From: an archaeon 13_1_40CM_2_52_13
Lineage (GTDB): Archaea; Thermoproteota; Bathyarchaeia; 40CM-2-53-6
Length of the DNA: 39,751 bases
Reading direction: 5' to 3'
NCBI GenBank assembly: GCA_001919285.1
Contig: MNHO01000007.1
Span: forward strand, 1 to 39,751
The notes under the pieces are model-generated. The model saw only the letters and a list, made by a program, of their open reading frames with translations, was not told where the DNA came from and searched no databases. The position numbers were made by a program, and so were the translations under genes. This document shows, one piece after another, positions 15,315 to 20,984 of this stretch; the first letter of the stretch is position 1, and each line of letters begins with the position of its first letter.

Positions 15315-15954
15315 TTACGCCTGTCTCTGAGGGCGGGTGAGAGGTGGAATGGTTCGTCCATTCTCAGAATCCTCTATGAGCCGGTTAAGCCGCTTCAGCC
15401 TAGTATCGTCTTTCTTCGCGCTTACAACCCAGAACGCAGCTGTTCTTTGGTACCACGGAGCTTGGGTGCGGAAGAAGTTCCAAGCTTTCTTGTTGGCACG
15501 AAACCGCGTCTCAAAGACTCCGCTCAGTGTAGCGTTCCGTCTCTGCTCATACGAGTAGATCGAGGATCTTTCATCTGTTCGTTGCTCGAACGCTTTGAGT
15601 CCGGCTGGTCGCATGCGGCCTAGGCGGATGAGTTCCTTGGCGCGTTTGATGTTTACTGCGCTCCAAGTGCTGCGGGCTTTCCTTTGGGTGAACCGATTCG
15701 CATAGCTGGAATCATTGACGCTCTTTCGAACACTATCGATCCAGCCGAAGCAGAGCGCTTCGTCAACAGACTCCGCCCAGGTAATGCTCGGTAGGTCGGA
15801 GCTCTTCTTGTGAAATCCTACCCAGATCTCCTGGGCCTTATCATGATTCTTCTCAAGCCACTCGTGGAATTCCGAGGGTCTGGCGAAAAAATAACGGGTT
15901 CGGACGCCTTTCGGTCAGTCTATTCTTAATCCGGTCGCTCGTTGAATTCTTCAA
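15315..15954 (-). pseudogene. YdeI/OmpD-associated family protein with an N-terminal frameshift
   Basis: The frame ending at 15315 is open far beyond its first Met (15614), back to a stop at 15917. The upstream part is plainly coding: ARPSEFHEWLEKNHDKA, then EIWVGFHKKSS, SITWAESVDEALCFGWIDSV and RSTWSAVNIKRAKELIRLG, all hallmarks of the YdeI family (DUF1801/DUF1905-like bacteriocin-protection proteins). No start codon exists in that stretch. Dropping one A from the six at 15886-15891 joins it to a second frame reading RRPNPLFF, which continues to TTG 15954-15952. That TTG overlaps the stop of the preceding cupredoxin gene (TTGA). The intact protein would be about 213 residues. Function in this family is not established. 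Confidence 0.75.
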
Positions 15955-16385
15955 GGCTTGACGATTATGACTCCTCTCATCCACATAGGATGGAAATTAC
16001 AGTGATATGTGTAGAGTCCCGGAGTAGTCAGCTGGACGAAGAAAGTATTACCGCTATCCAGTTCTCCTGAATCAAACTTGGTAGCGCCAGGAGGGACGAG
16101 TGTAGCGGTGGCGGTGTGCGGGGACTCGTCATGGTTCTTCCATTGGACAAAGGTTCCCGCCGCAATCGTCACATTCGACAATACGAAGTTCTTACTGCTG
16201 TCGAACGAGACTCCGAATGGAATGTCTATGCAGGTGGCGGTCGGGCTTGGACAGACGATGGGTTTAGGCTTGGCGGGGAAAACTAGTACATAGAACATCG
16301 AGCCGCCGAGGACTAGCCCGACAAGGAGGAGGGCTGACAGGACGACGGTGTCCGGCTGGTACGAAGAGGTTGTCAATCTTCTCAC
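15951..16385 (-). CDS. Membrane-anchored blue-copper protein
   Basis: A 144-residue cupredoxin downstream of the oxidase genes. One helix at about residues 14-37 (VVLSALLLVGLVLGGSMFYVLVF), then an extracytoplasmic domain. Type-1 copper ligands: His in DESPHTATA, then Cys, His and Met in YHCNFHPMWMRG. Start GTG 16385 abuts the TAG of the subunit IV gene with no gap, so it belongs to the coxB-coxAC-coxD operon and is probably the electron donor to the CuA site or an accessory subunit. Two more Cys in IVCPSPTATC may form a disulfide. Confidence 0.93.
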   Translation of the reverse strand: MRRLTTSSYQPDTVVLSALLLVGLVLGGSMFYVLVFPAKPKPIVCPSPTATCIDIPFGVSFDSSKNFVLSNVTIAAGTFVQWKNHDESPHTATATLVPPGATKFDSGELDSGNTFFVQLTTPGLYTYHCNFHPMWMRGVIIVKP

Positions 16386-16652
16386 CTAGTGTCCTATCGA
16401 GCCCAACGCAAGAACCACGGCAAGGACAGCGAAGAAGAGGGAAGCAGCAGCAATGCCAACGATTCCACGGGGCTCATACTTGAGGCGGAGGAATACCATG
16501 GCCACGGTCAGGATCTGGCTCGCGGCGAGCGCCGCTATGAGTATGTTGGAGTAAATGGTGCTCAGGCTCAGAAAGTTCTTTGCCAAAGCCCATTCAAAGA
16601 GAGTTGCAACAACCAGGTAGGACCAGACTGCTATGGGGGTTGTGTTGTTCAT
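16386..16652 (-). CDS. Small cytochrome oxidase subunit (CoxD/subunit IV-like)
   Basis: An 88-residue membrane protein with three helices (AVWSYLVVATLFEWALA, ILIAALAASQILTVAMVFLRL, IVGIAAASLFFAVLAVVLALG). ATG 16652 follows the CoxA-CoxC stop by five bases. Prokaryotic subunit IV proteins are of this size, have similar helices and sit in this position. The sequence is too generic for a firm family assignment, so the call rests mainly on context. A longer frame upstream runs over the coxAC end and is not coding. Confidence 0.65.
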   Translation of the reverse strand: MNNTTPIAVWSYLVVATLFEWALAKNFLSLSTIYSNILIAALAASQILTVAMVFLRLKYEPRGIVGIAAASLFFAVLAVVLALGSIGH

Positions 16653-16657
16653 CTTTC

Positions 16658-18997
16658 TCACAACAGATAGAAGAGGGGAAAGACGACGAGCCAGACACAG
16701 TTGACGAATGACCAGTATAGGTTGAAGTTCTCTACCGTTCCGTAGCGTTCGGCGGAGAATCCGCCGGTTGCAGCTCTCTTCACTAAATAGATGATCAGGA
16801 ACATCCCTGCAAGAACATGAGCGCTGTGTATTCCGGTTGTTACGAAGTAGCTGCTCAACGGGAGCCCAATCTGAGCGCCGGGCGCGAGACCCTGCACGAG
16901 CCCATACCATTCGCTACCCTTTATCGCAAGGGAGAGTATTCCCAGCAGAAGAGTTACTCCCAGCCAGCCAATTAGGCCTCTCTTGCTGCCGGCTTTTATC
17001 GACTGGAGCCCGAGATAGGCTGTGAGGCTGCTCGTAATGACGATGATAGTGTCGACTGATCCAACATTGATGTCGTGAAGACTGCCCGGTGCGGGCCAAT
17101 AGGGAAAGTTTACTCTTATGAATGCGTAGCTTCCTAGGAGGACACCGAAGAGTACTGCCTCGGACCCCAGAAAGGTCCACATGGCCAGCTTGTCCTTTGG
17201 CACCTTGCTGAAGGGCCAGCGCTCGCCCTCCTCCTCTTCGGGAAGTCTGAATCTGCCTCGGTAGTCGTCCCAGGCCCAGCCCACGACTCCCCCGGCGAGA
17301 ATGACAAGGCCGACGATAATTACTGGTAAGCCGAACGCAAGCCCTGCCATGCTCACCGCGAAGCCGAGACAGAGAATTATCGGTCTCGTACTGAGGGGAC
17401 TTGCCTCGTGCACGGATTCGGATGCTGAGTGAGGAACACCATTTCCAAGACCATTCCCGATGCCATGACTTGAAGCTCCGACAGCATGGGGCATACTTGT
17501 GCCGCTAGCCCATTCCCTATCTGTCGAATTCCAAGGATTCGCAGGGGCACGCGGACCTCGCAGGGTCATTCCCATATTATAGACGAGGAGAAGCTGAGAC
17601 GGGATGAAGATGAATGCCCCCACGGTAGCGATAAAGTTGGCCGGGCCCCACCCTGTCGAGGCGGCATACGTAACGATGCGCCTCGGCATACTTTCTAGGA
17701 AGAACATCGGGAAGAAGATGAGGTTGAACCCGACGAAGGAGAGTATGAAATGGATCTTTCCAAGGGTCTCATTATACATCCTCCCAGTCATCTTGGGAAG
17801 CCAGTAGTATATTCCTGCGAACAGCCCAAACTCTGAGGCTCCCACCATAACGTAGTGAAAGTGCGCCACGACAAAATACGTGCCCCTCAGGGCGATGTCG
17901 AGAGCCAGTGACGAATTGAAGACGCCTGACAATCCACCAATCACGAAGATGACGACGGAACCCAATGCGAAGAGCATCGGGGTCGTAAGCTTGACAGCTC
18001 CCTTGTAGAGAGTTCCGATGAAAGATAGCATCAAGACGCCGAAGGGAACCGAAATCATCTCTGTGTTGATCGTAAAGACTTCACGCTCTGTTAGACTGAT
18101 TCCCGTCAAGAACATGTGATGACCGTACACCATGTAGCTCAACAGCACGACAATTCCGACCGCGGCGAACAGCGGCTTCCTCGCATAGACTGGTCTCCCG
18201 GAGAAAGTCGCGATTATTCCGGCCACGATTCCGAACGCGGGCAGCAAGACGATGTAGACCTCAGGATGACCAAAGAACCACCAGACATGGTCCCAAAGGA
18301 TCGAACCACCGGCCGTGGAAGTAAAGAAGGAGGTCCCGAGAAGCCTATCGGCCTCGAGCATTATCAGGCCAGCGATGAGAGAGGGGAAAGCCCATAGAAA
18401 CTGGAGCATTGTCCAGAAAGTGAACATCGTAAACATGGGCAGCTTGACAAAGCTGACACCCCGAGCTCTATGCCAGAGGATAGTGACCAATATGTTCACG
18501 GTGCCGACCGTGTTGGAAGCTGCCAAGACGATGAGGGCTGCCGCTCCCAGGGTCTCGCCAGAGCCGGGGCTAAACTGGAGCGACGTCAGCGGAGAATAGT
18601 TCGTCCACCCCGATGCGGGAGATCCTCCCGGGACGAAGAAACTGGCAAAAGCGGTTATTCCACTGAACACGTACATCCAATAGCTTGTGGCGTTGAGCCT
18701 GGCAAACGCCACATCGGCGGCTCCTATCTGGAGAGGAACGAAATAGTTCGCAAAGGCGATTCCCAGCGGCGAGAGGAACCAGAGTACCATGATCAGACCA
18801 TGCATCGTAACGGCCTCGTTGTACTGTGGAGGCTGAAGGAAGGTCTCAGATGGGAAGGCGAGCTGTGTCCGCATGAGAAATGCGAGAATCCCGGCCAGGA
18901 AGGCGAAGTAGAACGATGTTACCAGATAGAGAATACCAACGTCCTTATGGTTGGTTGTAAACAACCACCTCTTCAGCCAGACAGTATTCAGGCTCAC
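16658..18997 (-). CDS. coxA: Heme-copper oxidase subunit I fused to subunit III
   Basis: A 779-residue CoxA-CoxC fusion. The CoxA part (to about 570) has heme a ligands His66 (TMHG) and His381, heme a3 ligand His379 (VVAHFHYV), CuB ligands His244 and His293-294 (GHPEVY, YGHHMF), and the cross-linked Tyr248. D-channel residues Asp95, Asn102 and Glu246 are present, so it looks like an A1-type oxygen reductase. The K-channel Thr and Lys positions (VPTGIK in model enzymes) read VPFGVL, that is Phe319 and Leu322. A linker with two helices leads to CoxC, recognisable by FLGSEAVLFG and GIHSAHVLAG. The start is GTG 18997 five bases after coxB. GGAGGT abuts the GTG with no spacer, which is unusual. 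Together with CoxB it reduces oxygen to water and pumps protons. Confidence 0.95.
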   Translation of the reverse strand: MSLNTVWLKRWLFTTNHKDVGILYLVTSFYFAFLAGILAFLMRTQLAFPSETFLQPPQYNEAVTMHGLIMVLWFLSPLGIAFANYFVPLQIGAADVAFARLNATSYWMYVFSGITAFASFFVPGGSPASGWTNYSPLTSLQFSPGSGETLGAAALIVLAASNTVGTVNILVTILWHRARGVSFVKLPMFTMFTFWTMLQFLWAFPSLIAGLIMLEADRLLGTSFFTSTAGGSILWDHVWWFFGHPEVYIVLLPAFGIVAGIIATFSGRPVYARKPLFAAVGIVVLLSYMVYGHHMFLTGISLTEREVFTINTEMISVPFGVLMLSFIGTLYKGAVKLTTPMLFALGSVVIFVIGGLSGVFNSSLALDIALRGTYFVVAHFHYVMVGASEFGLFAGIYYWLPKMTGRMYNETLGKIHFILSFVGFNLIFFPMFFLESMPRRIVTYAASTGWGPANFIATVGAFIFIPSQLLLVYNMGMTLRGPRAPANPWNSTDREWASGTSMPHAVGASSHGIGNGLGNGVPHSASESVHEASPLSTRPIILCLGFAVSMAGLAFGLPVIIVGLVILAGGVVGWAWDDYRGRFRLPEEEEGERWPFSKVPKDKLAMWTFLGSEAVLFGVLLGSYAFIRVNFPYWPAPGSLHDINVGSVDTIIVITSSLTAYLGLQSIKAGSKRGLIGWLGVTLLLGILSLAIKGSEWYGLVQGLAPGAQIGLPLSSYFVTTGIHSAHVLAGMFLIIYLVKRAATGGFSAERYGTVENFNLYWSFVNCVWLVVFPLFYLL

Positions 18998-19002
18998 ACC
19001 TC

Positions 19003-19659
19003 CTAGGTGACCACGAGCTTTGCGATCATGAAAGCATGTCCGGCTCCACATAGCTCGTAACATAGGATCCGGTATGTCCCTGCCGTGGACACTTGGAACC
19101 ATATCAGGTTGTATTTGCCCGGGATCGCGTCTGCCTTTACTCGAAGGTCGGGGATTCCGAACGAATGAAACACATCTATCGAGGTTATGTTCAGAATAAC
19201 GATCTTGTTCCGGGGCACAGTCAACACAGCAGCAACACCGCAACCGCTGGTACAGTTGAAGCTCCACGAGAAGCGCTGGCCAGTGACATTGACGTGTAAC
19301 GCGTTTGGATCATTCCAGCCATTCGGCGGGTTGTTATAGACGCCTATGGCATGGAAGCTTGCATAGCCCGCGCCTGCAAGCACGGAAGCCATCACTATGA
19401 CAATTACGAGAACAGTTCGAACAGGAATCTTCCTATCCTCGTCATGCTGGACCGGACTGGAACCGGGTCTAGCCCGGTACTTTGTTACGAAAAGCACTAG
19501 GGCTCCTATTGTGATTGTACCGGCAGCGACAGCCAGAACCCAGTATAGGTCGTAGAGAGACTGCCAAGTATCCGCCGTGGGCGCTGAGATCGCCAGCAGA
19601 CCGTGCCTCAGAAGGGAGCTTCGTCCCCTCCGATCGAGATTTAAGCTTAGTGGGCACAC
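19003..19659 (-). CDS. coxB: Cytochrome c oxidase subunit II (CuA)
   Basis: A 218-residue subunit II with two N-terminal helices (YWVLAVAAGTITIGALVLFV, TVLVIVIVMASVLAGAGYASF) and a CuA domain. CuA ligands: His in DVFHSFGIP, then Cys, Cys, His and Met in CYELCGAGHAFM, including the Glu between the two Cys. The aromatic electron entry patch is QRFSWSFN. No heme-binding CxxCH is fused, so the donor is likely a cupredoxin. GTG 19659 is the only canonical start before the first helix. It opens the minus-strand operon coxB-coxAC-coxD-cupredoxin and is divergent from the CuA-like gene at 19788. Confidence 0.94.
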   Translation of the reverse strand: MCPLSLNLDRRGRSSLLRHGLLAISAPTADTWQSLYDLYWVLAVAAGTITIGALVLFVTKYRARPGSSPVQHDEDRKIPVRTVLVIVIVMASVLAGAGYASFHAIGVYNNPPNGWNDPNALHVNVTGQRFSWSFNCTSGCGVAAVLTVPRNKIVILNITSIDVFHSFGIPDLRVKADAIPGKYNLIWFQVSTAGTYRILCYELCGAGHAFMIAKLVVT

Positions 19660-19787: not shown

Positions 19788-20216
19788 ATGCTGATCAGCA
19801 GGACCCTGACGATTCTCGCAATATCAATTACGGCCTTCTCAGGGTTCATCGCCCTCCAATACGTCCACTTGCCTAGCGCCGCCTTCAACGTGTCCCTTGC
19901 CCAGAGCTGTGAAAGACCCCGAGGCTACGTCCTGGTGATTCTAGACGACAAAGGATTCAACGACAGCATTCACAGAGGCCAGCCAACCATCGAGTTTCAA
20001 CGAGGCGACACTGTTAACATTCTAGTCTGCAACCTCGACCCAATCCAGTCCCACGGCTTAGCAATCGACCACTATTTTCCCACTGGCGCCACTTTGAGAC
20101 CGGGCGAAGCATACAAGGTATCCTTTGTCGCTAAGGAACCCGGTAGCTTCACGATCTACTGCAACGTCTTCTGCACAGTCCACACATTCATGAAAGGCAG
20201 ACTGGTAGTGAACTAA
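19788..20216 (+). CDS. Stand-alone membrane-anchored CuA-type cupredoxin
   Basis: A 142-residue protein: one N-terminal helix (about residues 5-25) acting as signal anchor, then a cupredoxin domain with a binuclear CuA pattern, His in PIQSHGLAI and CNVFCTVHTFM (Cys-x3-Cys-x3-His-x2-Met). The Glu usually found between the two Cys, which binds through its backbone, is Val. The domain resembles those of CoxB and nitrous oxide reductase, but there is no second helix and no catalytic domain. It could be an alternative electron-entry subunit or a copper-loading chaperone for the oxidase encoded divergently. ATG 19788 lies about 30 bases after a CTATTATG box, giving a very short leader. Confidence 0.85.
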   Translation: MLISRTLTILAISITAFSGFIALQYVHLPSAAFNVSLAQSCERPRGYVLVILDDKGFNDSIHRGQPTIEFQRGDTVNILVCNLDPIQSHGLAIDHYFPTGATLRPGEAYKVSFVAKEPGSFTIYCNVFCTVHTFMKGRLVVN

Positions 20217-20285: not shown

Positions 20286-20984
20286 ATGTCACAATCCCAA
20301 ACAGCATCGTCAACAGGTCGCACAGCGTTGGCGTTAGGAGTCGTCGCGCTCATCATCGGTGCTTCGGCCCTAGGCTACGCGGTCTACCTTGGTCTCAGCC
20401 AGTTGCCATCCCAGCTATCCGCAATTACCGTAAACGTCCCATGCTCGACAAGTCAGCCATGCGCGGACAAGACATTCCGAATCGACTGGTTCAACGATCC
20501 AGCCAGCGCTCAGGACAGATTCTATCCTTCAGACAGTACCTTCATCCAGGGGGACAACATCACCATCATTTTCGTTACCAACGACACTACCGACGCCCAC
20601 ACCTTTACCCTCGGCTTGGGACTCCGCGGCCTACCTAGCAGCGCGGTATTCCAATTGAATAACAGCTGGATAGGCTTGTCAGCCGGCCCATTCGTTACGA
20701 ATCCAAATGATAATTTCACAGGAAAACCTGACGGATGCAAGGACAACAATGGCAACGATGTCGCTTGCAATACGCAGAGAGCCGCCTCCGATCCTACCGG
20801 AAATTGCGACAATAAGCTCGAAAATCCCCCAATCTCAAGCGCTCCCCCATGCAACCTCTGGTCCACCGGCTATCTCGGCGTAGTCAATACCCCAGGCGTC
20901 TACAAATTCTTCTGCTTCTACCATCAAAAAGTGGGCATGTACGGCTATATCACGGTGCTTCCAAACAAAGGATTCACTGCCTAA
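20286..20984 (+). CDS. Membrane-anchored blue-copper protein, large form
   Basis: A 232-residue cupredoxin with an N-terminal helix (ALALGVVALIIGASALGYAVYLGL) and an extracytoplasmic domain. Type-1 copper ligands: His in TTDAHTFTLG, then Cys, His and Met in FFCFYHQKVGMYGYI. Between the first His and the Cys lies a long, Asn/Asp/Cys-rich insertion (about residues 135-185: NDNFTGKPDGCKDNNG, VACNTQ, GNCDNK, PPCNLW) with four Cys, likely two disulfides, larger than in ordinary plastocyanin. It is expected outside the membrane as an electron carrier. It has its own promoter and ends in a clear T-run, so it is a single-gene unit. Confidence 0.9.
   Translation: MSQSQTASSTGRTALALGVVALIIGASALGYAVYLGLSQLPSQLSAITVNVPCSTSQPCADKTFRIDWFNDPASAQDRFYPSDSTFIQGDNITIIFVTNDTTDAHTFTLGLGLRGLPSSAVFQLNNSWIGLSAGPFVTNPNDNFTGKPDGCKDNNGNDVACNTQRAASDPTGNCDNKLENPPISSAPPCNLWSTGYLGVVNTPGVYKFFCFYHQKVGMYGYITVLPNKGFTA

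Follow-up and report, generated by a model that had tools for sequence, protein, structure and literature searches.

A gene at positions 19788-20216 (+ strand) of the window, which is the whole 39,751-nucleotide stretch of soil-archaeon DNA analysed here, encodes a small membrane-anchored cupredoxin. On good evidence, its family descends from a CuA domain that lost one residue between the second cysteine and the histidine of the ligand loop. Its genetic linkage to the second aa3-type oxidase of its lineage is likewise well supported. We suggest, with about even confidence, that the protein is a tethered copper relay, a loop-contracted CuA descendant that would form part of this second oxidase module. 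The features that bear on this proposal are the following.

15951-16385, - strand: type 1 cupredoxin of the amicyanin/plastocyanin kind, last gene of the oxidase operon (Copper-bind 3.1e-8; amicyanin 1.5e-8; synteny)
16386-16910, - strand: subunit IV-like; the frame partly overlaps CoxA-CoxC and the real gene is probably shorter (COX4_pro 8.1e-7; synteny)
16658-19267, - strand: subunits I and III of the second oxidase as a CoxA-CoxC fusion, the frame probably too long at its N-terminus (COX1 3.9e-127; COX3 2.6e-9)
19003-19659, - strand: CoxB (subunit II) with a canonical CuA motif, start uncertain (COX2 1.3e-16; CoxB 2e-42)
19788-20216, + strand: the target, a CuA-derived cupredoxin with a contracted ligand loop (open reading frame, model, fold matches, family and dN/dS)
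19908-19910, + strand: Cys41, which probably forms a structural disulphide with Cys81 (20028-20030), paired from cysteine co-occurrence
20052-20054, + strand: codon of His89, putative copper ligand (QSHG), in 60/62 rows
20160-20192, + strand: ligand loop C125-x3-C129-x2-H132-x2-M135, each ligand in 59/62 rows
20286-20984, + strand: plastocyanin-like cupredoxin with C-x2-H-x4-M, next gene after the target (plastocyanin model 1.2e-4, below its cut-off; synteny)

A stand-alone cupredoxin with a contracted ligand loop

The target frame begins with ATG and encodes 142 amino acids. It contains a single N-terminal hydrophobic stretch (best 19-residue window beginning at residue 6), which is a single-helix membrane anchor, and one cupredoxin domain, recognized in both the AlphaFold2 model and the fold matches. 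Searches with Pfam and curated models found neither an oxidase domain nor a NosZ propeller domain in it. These results bear out an earlier sequence-only reading, which had described a stand-alone, single-helix protein with no oxidase or N2O-reductase domain. The AlphaFold2 model has a mean pLDDT of 79.3; values stay below 50 over residues 1-30 and exceed 90 through most of the domain. Compared with two orthologues, the gene gives dN/dS ratios of 0.21 and 0.18, and the orthologues compared with each other give 0.16; the gene is thus under purifying selection.

The ligand loop reads Y-C125-N-V-F-C129-T-V-H132-T-F-M135-K-G, that is C-x3-C-x2-H-x2-M, and the full spacing is H-x35-C-x3-C-x2-H-x2-M. 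The canonical CuA motif, as given in PMC6189053, is H-x34-C-x3-C-x3-H-x2-M, from which the target departs. The sequence-only reading had credited the protein with the full Cys-x3-Cys-x3-His-x2-Met pattern, a miscount by one, as the second cysteine and the histidine lie two residues apart rather than three. One possible interpretation is that the target is an ordinary canonical CuA protein: the five side-chain ligands are present within the cupredoxin domain (two Cys, two His and one Met; H89, C125, C129, H132 and M135), and the nearest profiles are NosZ CuA domains. However, C-x3-C-x2-H-x2-M in the target and in 53/60 relatives refutes this interpretation at the motif level, and we regard it as very improbable. 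Since the loop is one residue short, a normal CuA centre should not be assumed. A sequencing slip as the cause of the short loop is ruled out by the same spacing in those 53 homologous domains.

The ligands are nearly invariant across 62 aligned rows, with H89 conserved in 60 and C125, C129, H132 and M135 in 59 each, and this conservation extends down to about 30% identity. The three exceptions are a mis-cut row (L106) and two ligand-less copies, in which all ligands have gone together, save the first His kept in one. In 50/62 rows there is exactly one extra cysteine close to the N-terminus and exactly one more within the domain, the latter at position 73, 81, 83 or 108 in target numbering. 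It looks as if a structural disulphide has migrated within the family, the pairing being judged from co-occurrence.

If Cys129, conserved as it is, binds copper, the simplest reading would be a binuclear, CuA-like site carried by a shortened loop. Alternatively, the site might be mononuclear, with His89, Cys125, His132 and Met135 forming a type 1 centre that is green or perturbed and Cys129 in a second-sphere or auxiliary position, and the protein might act as an electron carrier or oxidase stabiliser; we consider this unlikely. The half-motif CTVHTFM has the amicyanin spacing, C-x2-H-x2-M, but the target reaches 18 bits with the amicyanin model, whose cut-off is 110.2. If Cys129 is not a ligand, Cys125-x6-His132 would equal the unusual C-x6-H of AcoP, which PMC4059628 describes as a single-domain membrane-anchored cupredoxin of Acidithiobacillus bound to cytochrome c oxidase. 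By that description, the target resembles AcoP in layout, as an anchored single cupredoxin of an oxidase cluster with C125-x6-H132. However, Acidithiobacillus ferrooxidans AcoP, as described there, has one loop cysteine and H-x4-M, whereas the target has two and H132-x2-M135. Type 1 loops grafted onto the Thermus CuA scaffold also yield distorted mononuclear sites, according to PMC7480511. These chimeras (5U7N and others) carry shortened or swapped loops on a CuA scaffold, as the target does, and 5u7n is among its PDB sequence matches (E 0.044); they are, however, engineered and have a single loop cysteine in that account, whereas the natural target retains both. Moreover, Cys129 is as invariant as Cys125, and it would be superfluous for a mononuclear site.

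Descent from a CuA domain

Profile-profile comparison (hhalign) of the family with seven canonical archaeal CuA domains gave a probability of 99.6 and an E-value of 5.6e-24. Alignments to NosZ and to the canonical archaeal CuA profile both place a one-residue gap between the second cysteine and the histidine. The best curated models for the target are NosZ CuA domains, at 5.6e-12 (TIGR04246) and 1.6e-11, followed by nitrosocyanin (1e-7) and, far weaker, amicyanin and CoxB (0.003); all score under their cut-offs. NosZ models match 12/12 members of set A3.

With the target model as query, Foldseek ranks N2OR first (6rl0, 1.9e-8), and Thermus CuA (2cua) is found at 1.1e-7. VIA-align gives Z 12.3 for N2OR (1fwx; rmsd 2.1 over 101 residues) and Z 12.2 for nitrosocyanin (rmsd 1.8 over 88 residues). 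For the predicted structure, the CuA and nitrosocyanin folds thus appear indistinguishable by Foldseek and VIA-align, with tied Z values. Nitrosocyanin is red and mononuclear and uses ligands other than those of CuA, and the target scores 31.8 bits against its cut-off of 142.85 (TIGR03096).

The NosZ CuA domain is the best match in both sequence and fold (PDB 2iwf, 1.6e-7) and has the same five side-chain ligands. Unlike NosZ, the target stands alone, is membrane-anchored, lacks the propeller and has a loop one residue shorter; at 142 residues, it reaches only 44.7 bits against the NosZ cut-off of 625. The CuA domain of CoxB, as in Thermus 2cua, has the same ligand types, and the target gene adjoins coxB; in comparison with CoxB, the target has one helix and the contracted loop. 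TIGR02866 (CoxB) gives 17 bits against 147.7, and PF00116 (COX2) gave no match at E <= 0.1. With no extra domain and scores far beneath the cut-offs, a remnant of CoxB or NosZ is ruled out. Pfam Cupredoxin_1 is sub-threshold (17.4 against 27), and the amicyanin score, also below its cut-off, likewise does not assign the target to the amicyanin/plastocyanin group. PmoD/AmoD, according to PMC6189053, is a stand-alone cupredoxin with a CuA-type centre that is tied to a membrane copper enzyme. Its centre is described there as forming at a homodimer interface with a ligand set different from that of the target.

A family of contracted-loop domains

Counting domains at E <= 1e-25 to the family profile, with motifs read in the fetched loci, we obtained 60 distinct domains after dropping a spurious 27-residue second match in L106. 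They comprise 53 with C-x3-C-x2-H-x2-M, three with C-x4-C-x2-H-x2-M, two with C-x3-C-x2-H-x3-M and two without ligands; none of the 60 has the canonical C-x3-C-x3-H-x2-M. Among 37 weaker profile rows, 15 are canonical, four carry His or Gln in place of the Met, and C-x3-C-x2-H-x2-M does not occur. Because the counting profile was built from contracted-loop members, this split is partly by construction. In a tree of 72 rows, which excluded L106, CoxB and L112 and included the loop columns, 61 family rows stand apart from 11 canonical-spaced rows with support of 100/100. Three distant rows (L064, L079 and L111) also have C-x3-C-x2-H but no Met at that place.

The ligand-less copies L024, L030 and L023 (in G006, G005 and G014, respectively) lie in the same clusters as other members, and their entire loop is swapped for one of the YEPIxTTIYVxEKAELDV type; the frame of the G014 copy holds an internal TAA. 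Four archaeal stand-alone CuA-like domains (L110, L112, L063 and L076) have canonical spacing with the Met changed to His in two and to Gln in two.

A search of related genomes gave matches in 21/61, all but one of them in f1, the window's own family. Across 398 genomes of the phylum, strong matches were restricted to f1 and one genome of a different family, f68; the motif was read in a minority of the weaker matches. A search around that f68 genome added many further f68 copies and one in f80. A scan of contigs from named genomes with one narrow peptide pattern, which may have missed others, returned 28 stretches and 10 relatives: eight from Candidatus Bathyarchaeota or 'archaeon' entries (soil-type MAGs) and two from Thaumarchaeota. 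Viral contigs yielded 59 matching stretches and no relative, and for plasmids (28 records) the rows among the matches listed were NosZ-type or unannotated, all below 60% identity. In the open-licence literature, no description of the contracted-loop family was found among the matches listed, which does not establish its absence in print. A literature search by motif strings matched the canonical string only, on PmoD, and none of the matches listed carried the contracted string.

Linkage to a second aa3-type oxidase

The target gene is divergent from coxB, whose product carries the canonical CuA motif CYELCGAGHAFM. The earlier description of a gene divergent from an oxidase operon that already has its own CoxB was therefore accurate. 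A single 869-residue frame encodes both CoxA and CoxC, and this fusion is common to the second and the main oxidase types.

COX1 was found in 17/21 f1 genomes. Typed by best match, their oxidases fall into a main type, with 17 loci in 15 genomes, and the second aa3-type to which the window belongs, in six genomes. A target orthologue lies within 2 kb of the second-type oxidase in 6/6 f1 cases, whereas no family member was found near the main-type oxidase in any of 15 genomes, within the stretches fetched. This association has a Fisher p of 1.8e-5, computed on related genomes that are not independent. The untypable fragment L164 of G019 was omitted, and L166 (G020:C309), a second-type fragment with no copy on its 3 kb, was counted as the other half of the G020 oxidase.

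The gene order is amicyanin-like, CoxIV, CoxA-CoxC, CoxB, divergent target and plastocyanin-like in the window, G003, G009, G014 and G017. The G020 contig is cut, and its plastocyanin-like gene lies on the opposite strand. In f68, the G467 genes run target-like, CoxB, CoxA-CoxC, CoxIV and amicyanin-like along a single strand; in G476, CoxB and CoxA-CoxC are accompanied by a contracted-loop copy 0.8 kb downstream. These f68 loci were found via the cupredoxin itself and so do not give the frequency of f68 second-type oxidases without a copy. The six f1 oxidase-linked copies form a clade (98/87), and the f1 and f68 oxidase-linked copies fall within one 24-row clade (97/88) alongside 15 other f68-type rows and L088, whose 5.9 kb contig showed no oxidase. 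The tree is thus compatible with a single origin of the oxidase-linked copies. Adjoining the G476 oxidase with its contracted-loop copy, a single frame (L142:6513-7778) has three cupredoxin-type domains, of which two carry canonical CuA motifs.

The electron chain and a proposed relay

Cytochrome c (PF00034, a model that does not span every cytochrome c) was found in 0/21 f1 genomes, while Rieske proteins were found in 21/21 and cytochrome b (PF13631) in 15/21. In 14 control genomes, the same searches found Rieske in 10, cytochrome b in eight, cytochrome c in eight, Sco in six and PCuAC in three. A stand-alone canonical C-x3-C-x3-H-x2-M protein sits beside cytochrome b in 13/18 fetched f1 regions (L174-L184, L186 and L187), and may stand in for cytochrome c in linking complex III to the oxidases. 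CuA carriers outside CoxB are thus normal in the f1 lineage, which agrees with a relay role for the target. In archaea that have oxidases and no detectable cytochrome c, electrons seem to be brought to CoxB by copper carriers, including free-standing CuA proteins encoded beside cytochrome b.

Alternatively, the target might do the work of Sco or PCuAC and load or assemble the CuA site of CoxB, binding copper through its CxxxC and its His and Met ligands before passing it on. In favour of this are the scarcity of Sco (PF02630, 1/21 f1 genomes) and PCuAC (PF04314, 0/21), although 17 of these genomes have COX1, and the position of the target gene next to coxB. A CxxxC with a distal His also resembles the ligands of Sco. 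However, Sulfolobus acidocaldarius, a COX1-positive control, likewise has no Sco match, and the missing Sco is therefore not special to the f1 lineage. The main oxidase, CoxB included, has no nearby copy in 15 genomes. The target keeps all five ligands including the Met, as in a stable electron-transfer site, and its predicted fold is a cupredoxin rather than thioredoxin-like. The sequence-only reading had named loss of copper binding, or placement in an Sco- or PCuAC-type family, as what would count against it; the ligands are retained, and neither PF02630 nor PF04314 matched the target at E <= 0.1 in Pfam. We judge a loading role to be doubtful.

Given that no cytochrome c was found in any of the 21 f1 genomes, the target most likely serves as a copper relay to CoxB. 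We then propose a mechanistic model for this relay. The target would be a membrane-anchored, outward-facing, single-domain cupredoxin whose metal site is a distorted CuA-like centre using His89, Cys125, Cys129, His132 and Met135. It would pass electrons between the CuA of CoxB and either the small type 1 cupredoxins of the neighbouring genes or a Rieske/cytochrome b complex, in a chain that works without cytochrome c. Copper binding, nuclearity, the direction of electron flow and the contact with CoxB are inferred. The electron relay or accessory role put forward earlier is reasonable from the oxidase linkage; sequence does not decide among entry subunit, relay and loader. Several points argue against the relay. 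The C-x3-C-x2-H loop may be incapable of holding a Cu2S2 core. The family spacing, as read from its sequences, is looser than in canonical CuA (C-x4-C-x2-H in 3/60 and H-x3-M in 2/60). Cytochrome b was found in only two of the six target-bearing genomes (G014 and G017), four of the six being 52-80% complete. Finally, most other family copies lie away from an oxidase, and membership of the family does not in itself make a protein part of an oxidase.

Propeller-linked branches and a possible wider class

Among 30 distinct f1 copies that are not by an oxidase, a Vgb/lactonase-type propeller gene lies within 2 kb in 22 and within 300 bases in 15. As propeller-linked copies are common in f1, the contracted-loop domain is a module with different partners, and this pairing speaks against a family function confined to oxidases. 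It is tempting to speculate, though only tentatively, that these roughly 60 archaeal proteins form a natural class of loop-contracted CuA centres, binuclear or of a new mixed kind, in which one branch would be the tethered carrier of a cytochrome-c-free oxidase and others would work with beta-propeller partners. CuA loop spacing is usually taken as fixed, and loop length is a main engineering tool for copper centres. A natural family with five side-chain ligands on a shorter loop offers a direct way to ask whether a Cu2S2, a mononuclear or an intermediate site forms, and bears on how CoxB receives electrons in archaea that have oxidases and no detectable cytochrome c.

The pairing of a propeller with a contracted-loop domain recalls the N2OR plan of propeller plus CuA. 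A NosZ split into propeller and cupredoxin appears improbable: the best matches of the four propellers tested are Vgb-type streptogramin-lyase models, L-NosZ matches one of the four weakly (1.8e-4, 20.2 bits against 700), and two sequences inspected by eye have few His. The propeller genes paired with L041, L042, L044, L046, L047, L017, L019, L020 and others encode membrane-anchored proteins of the Vgb/lactonase type.
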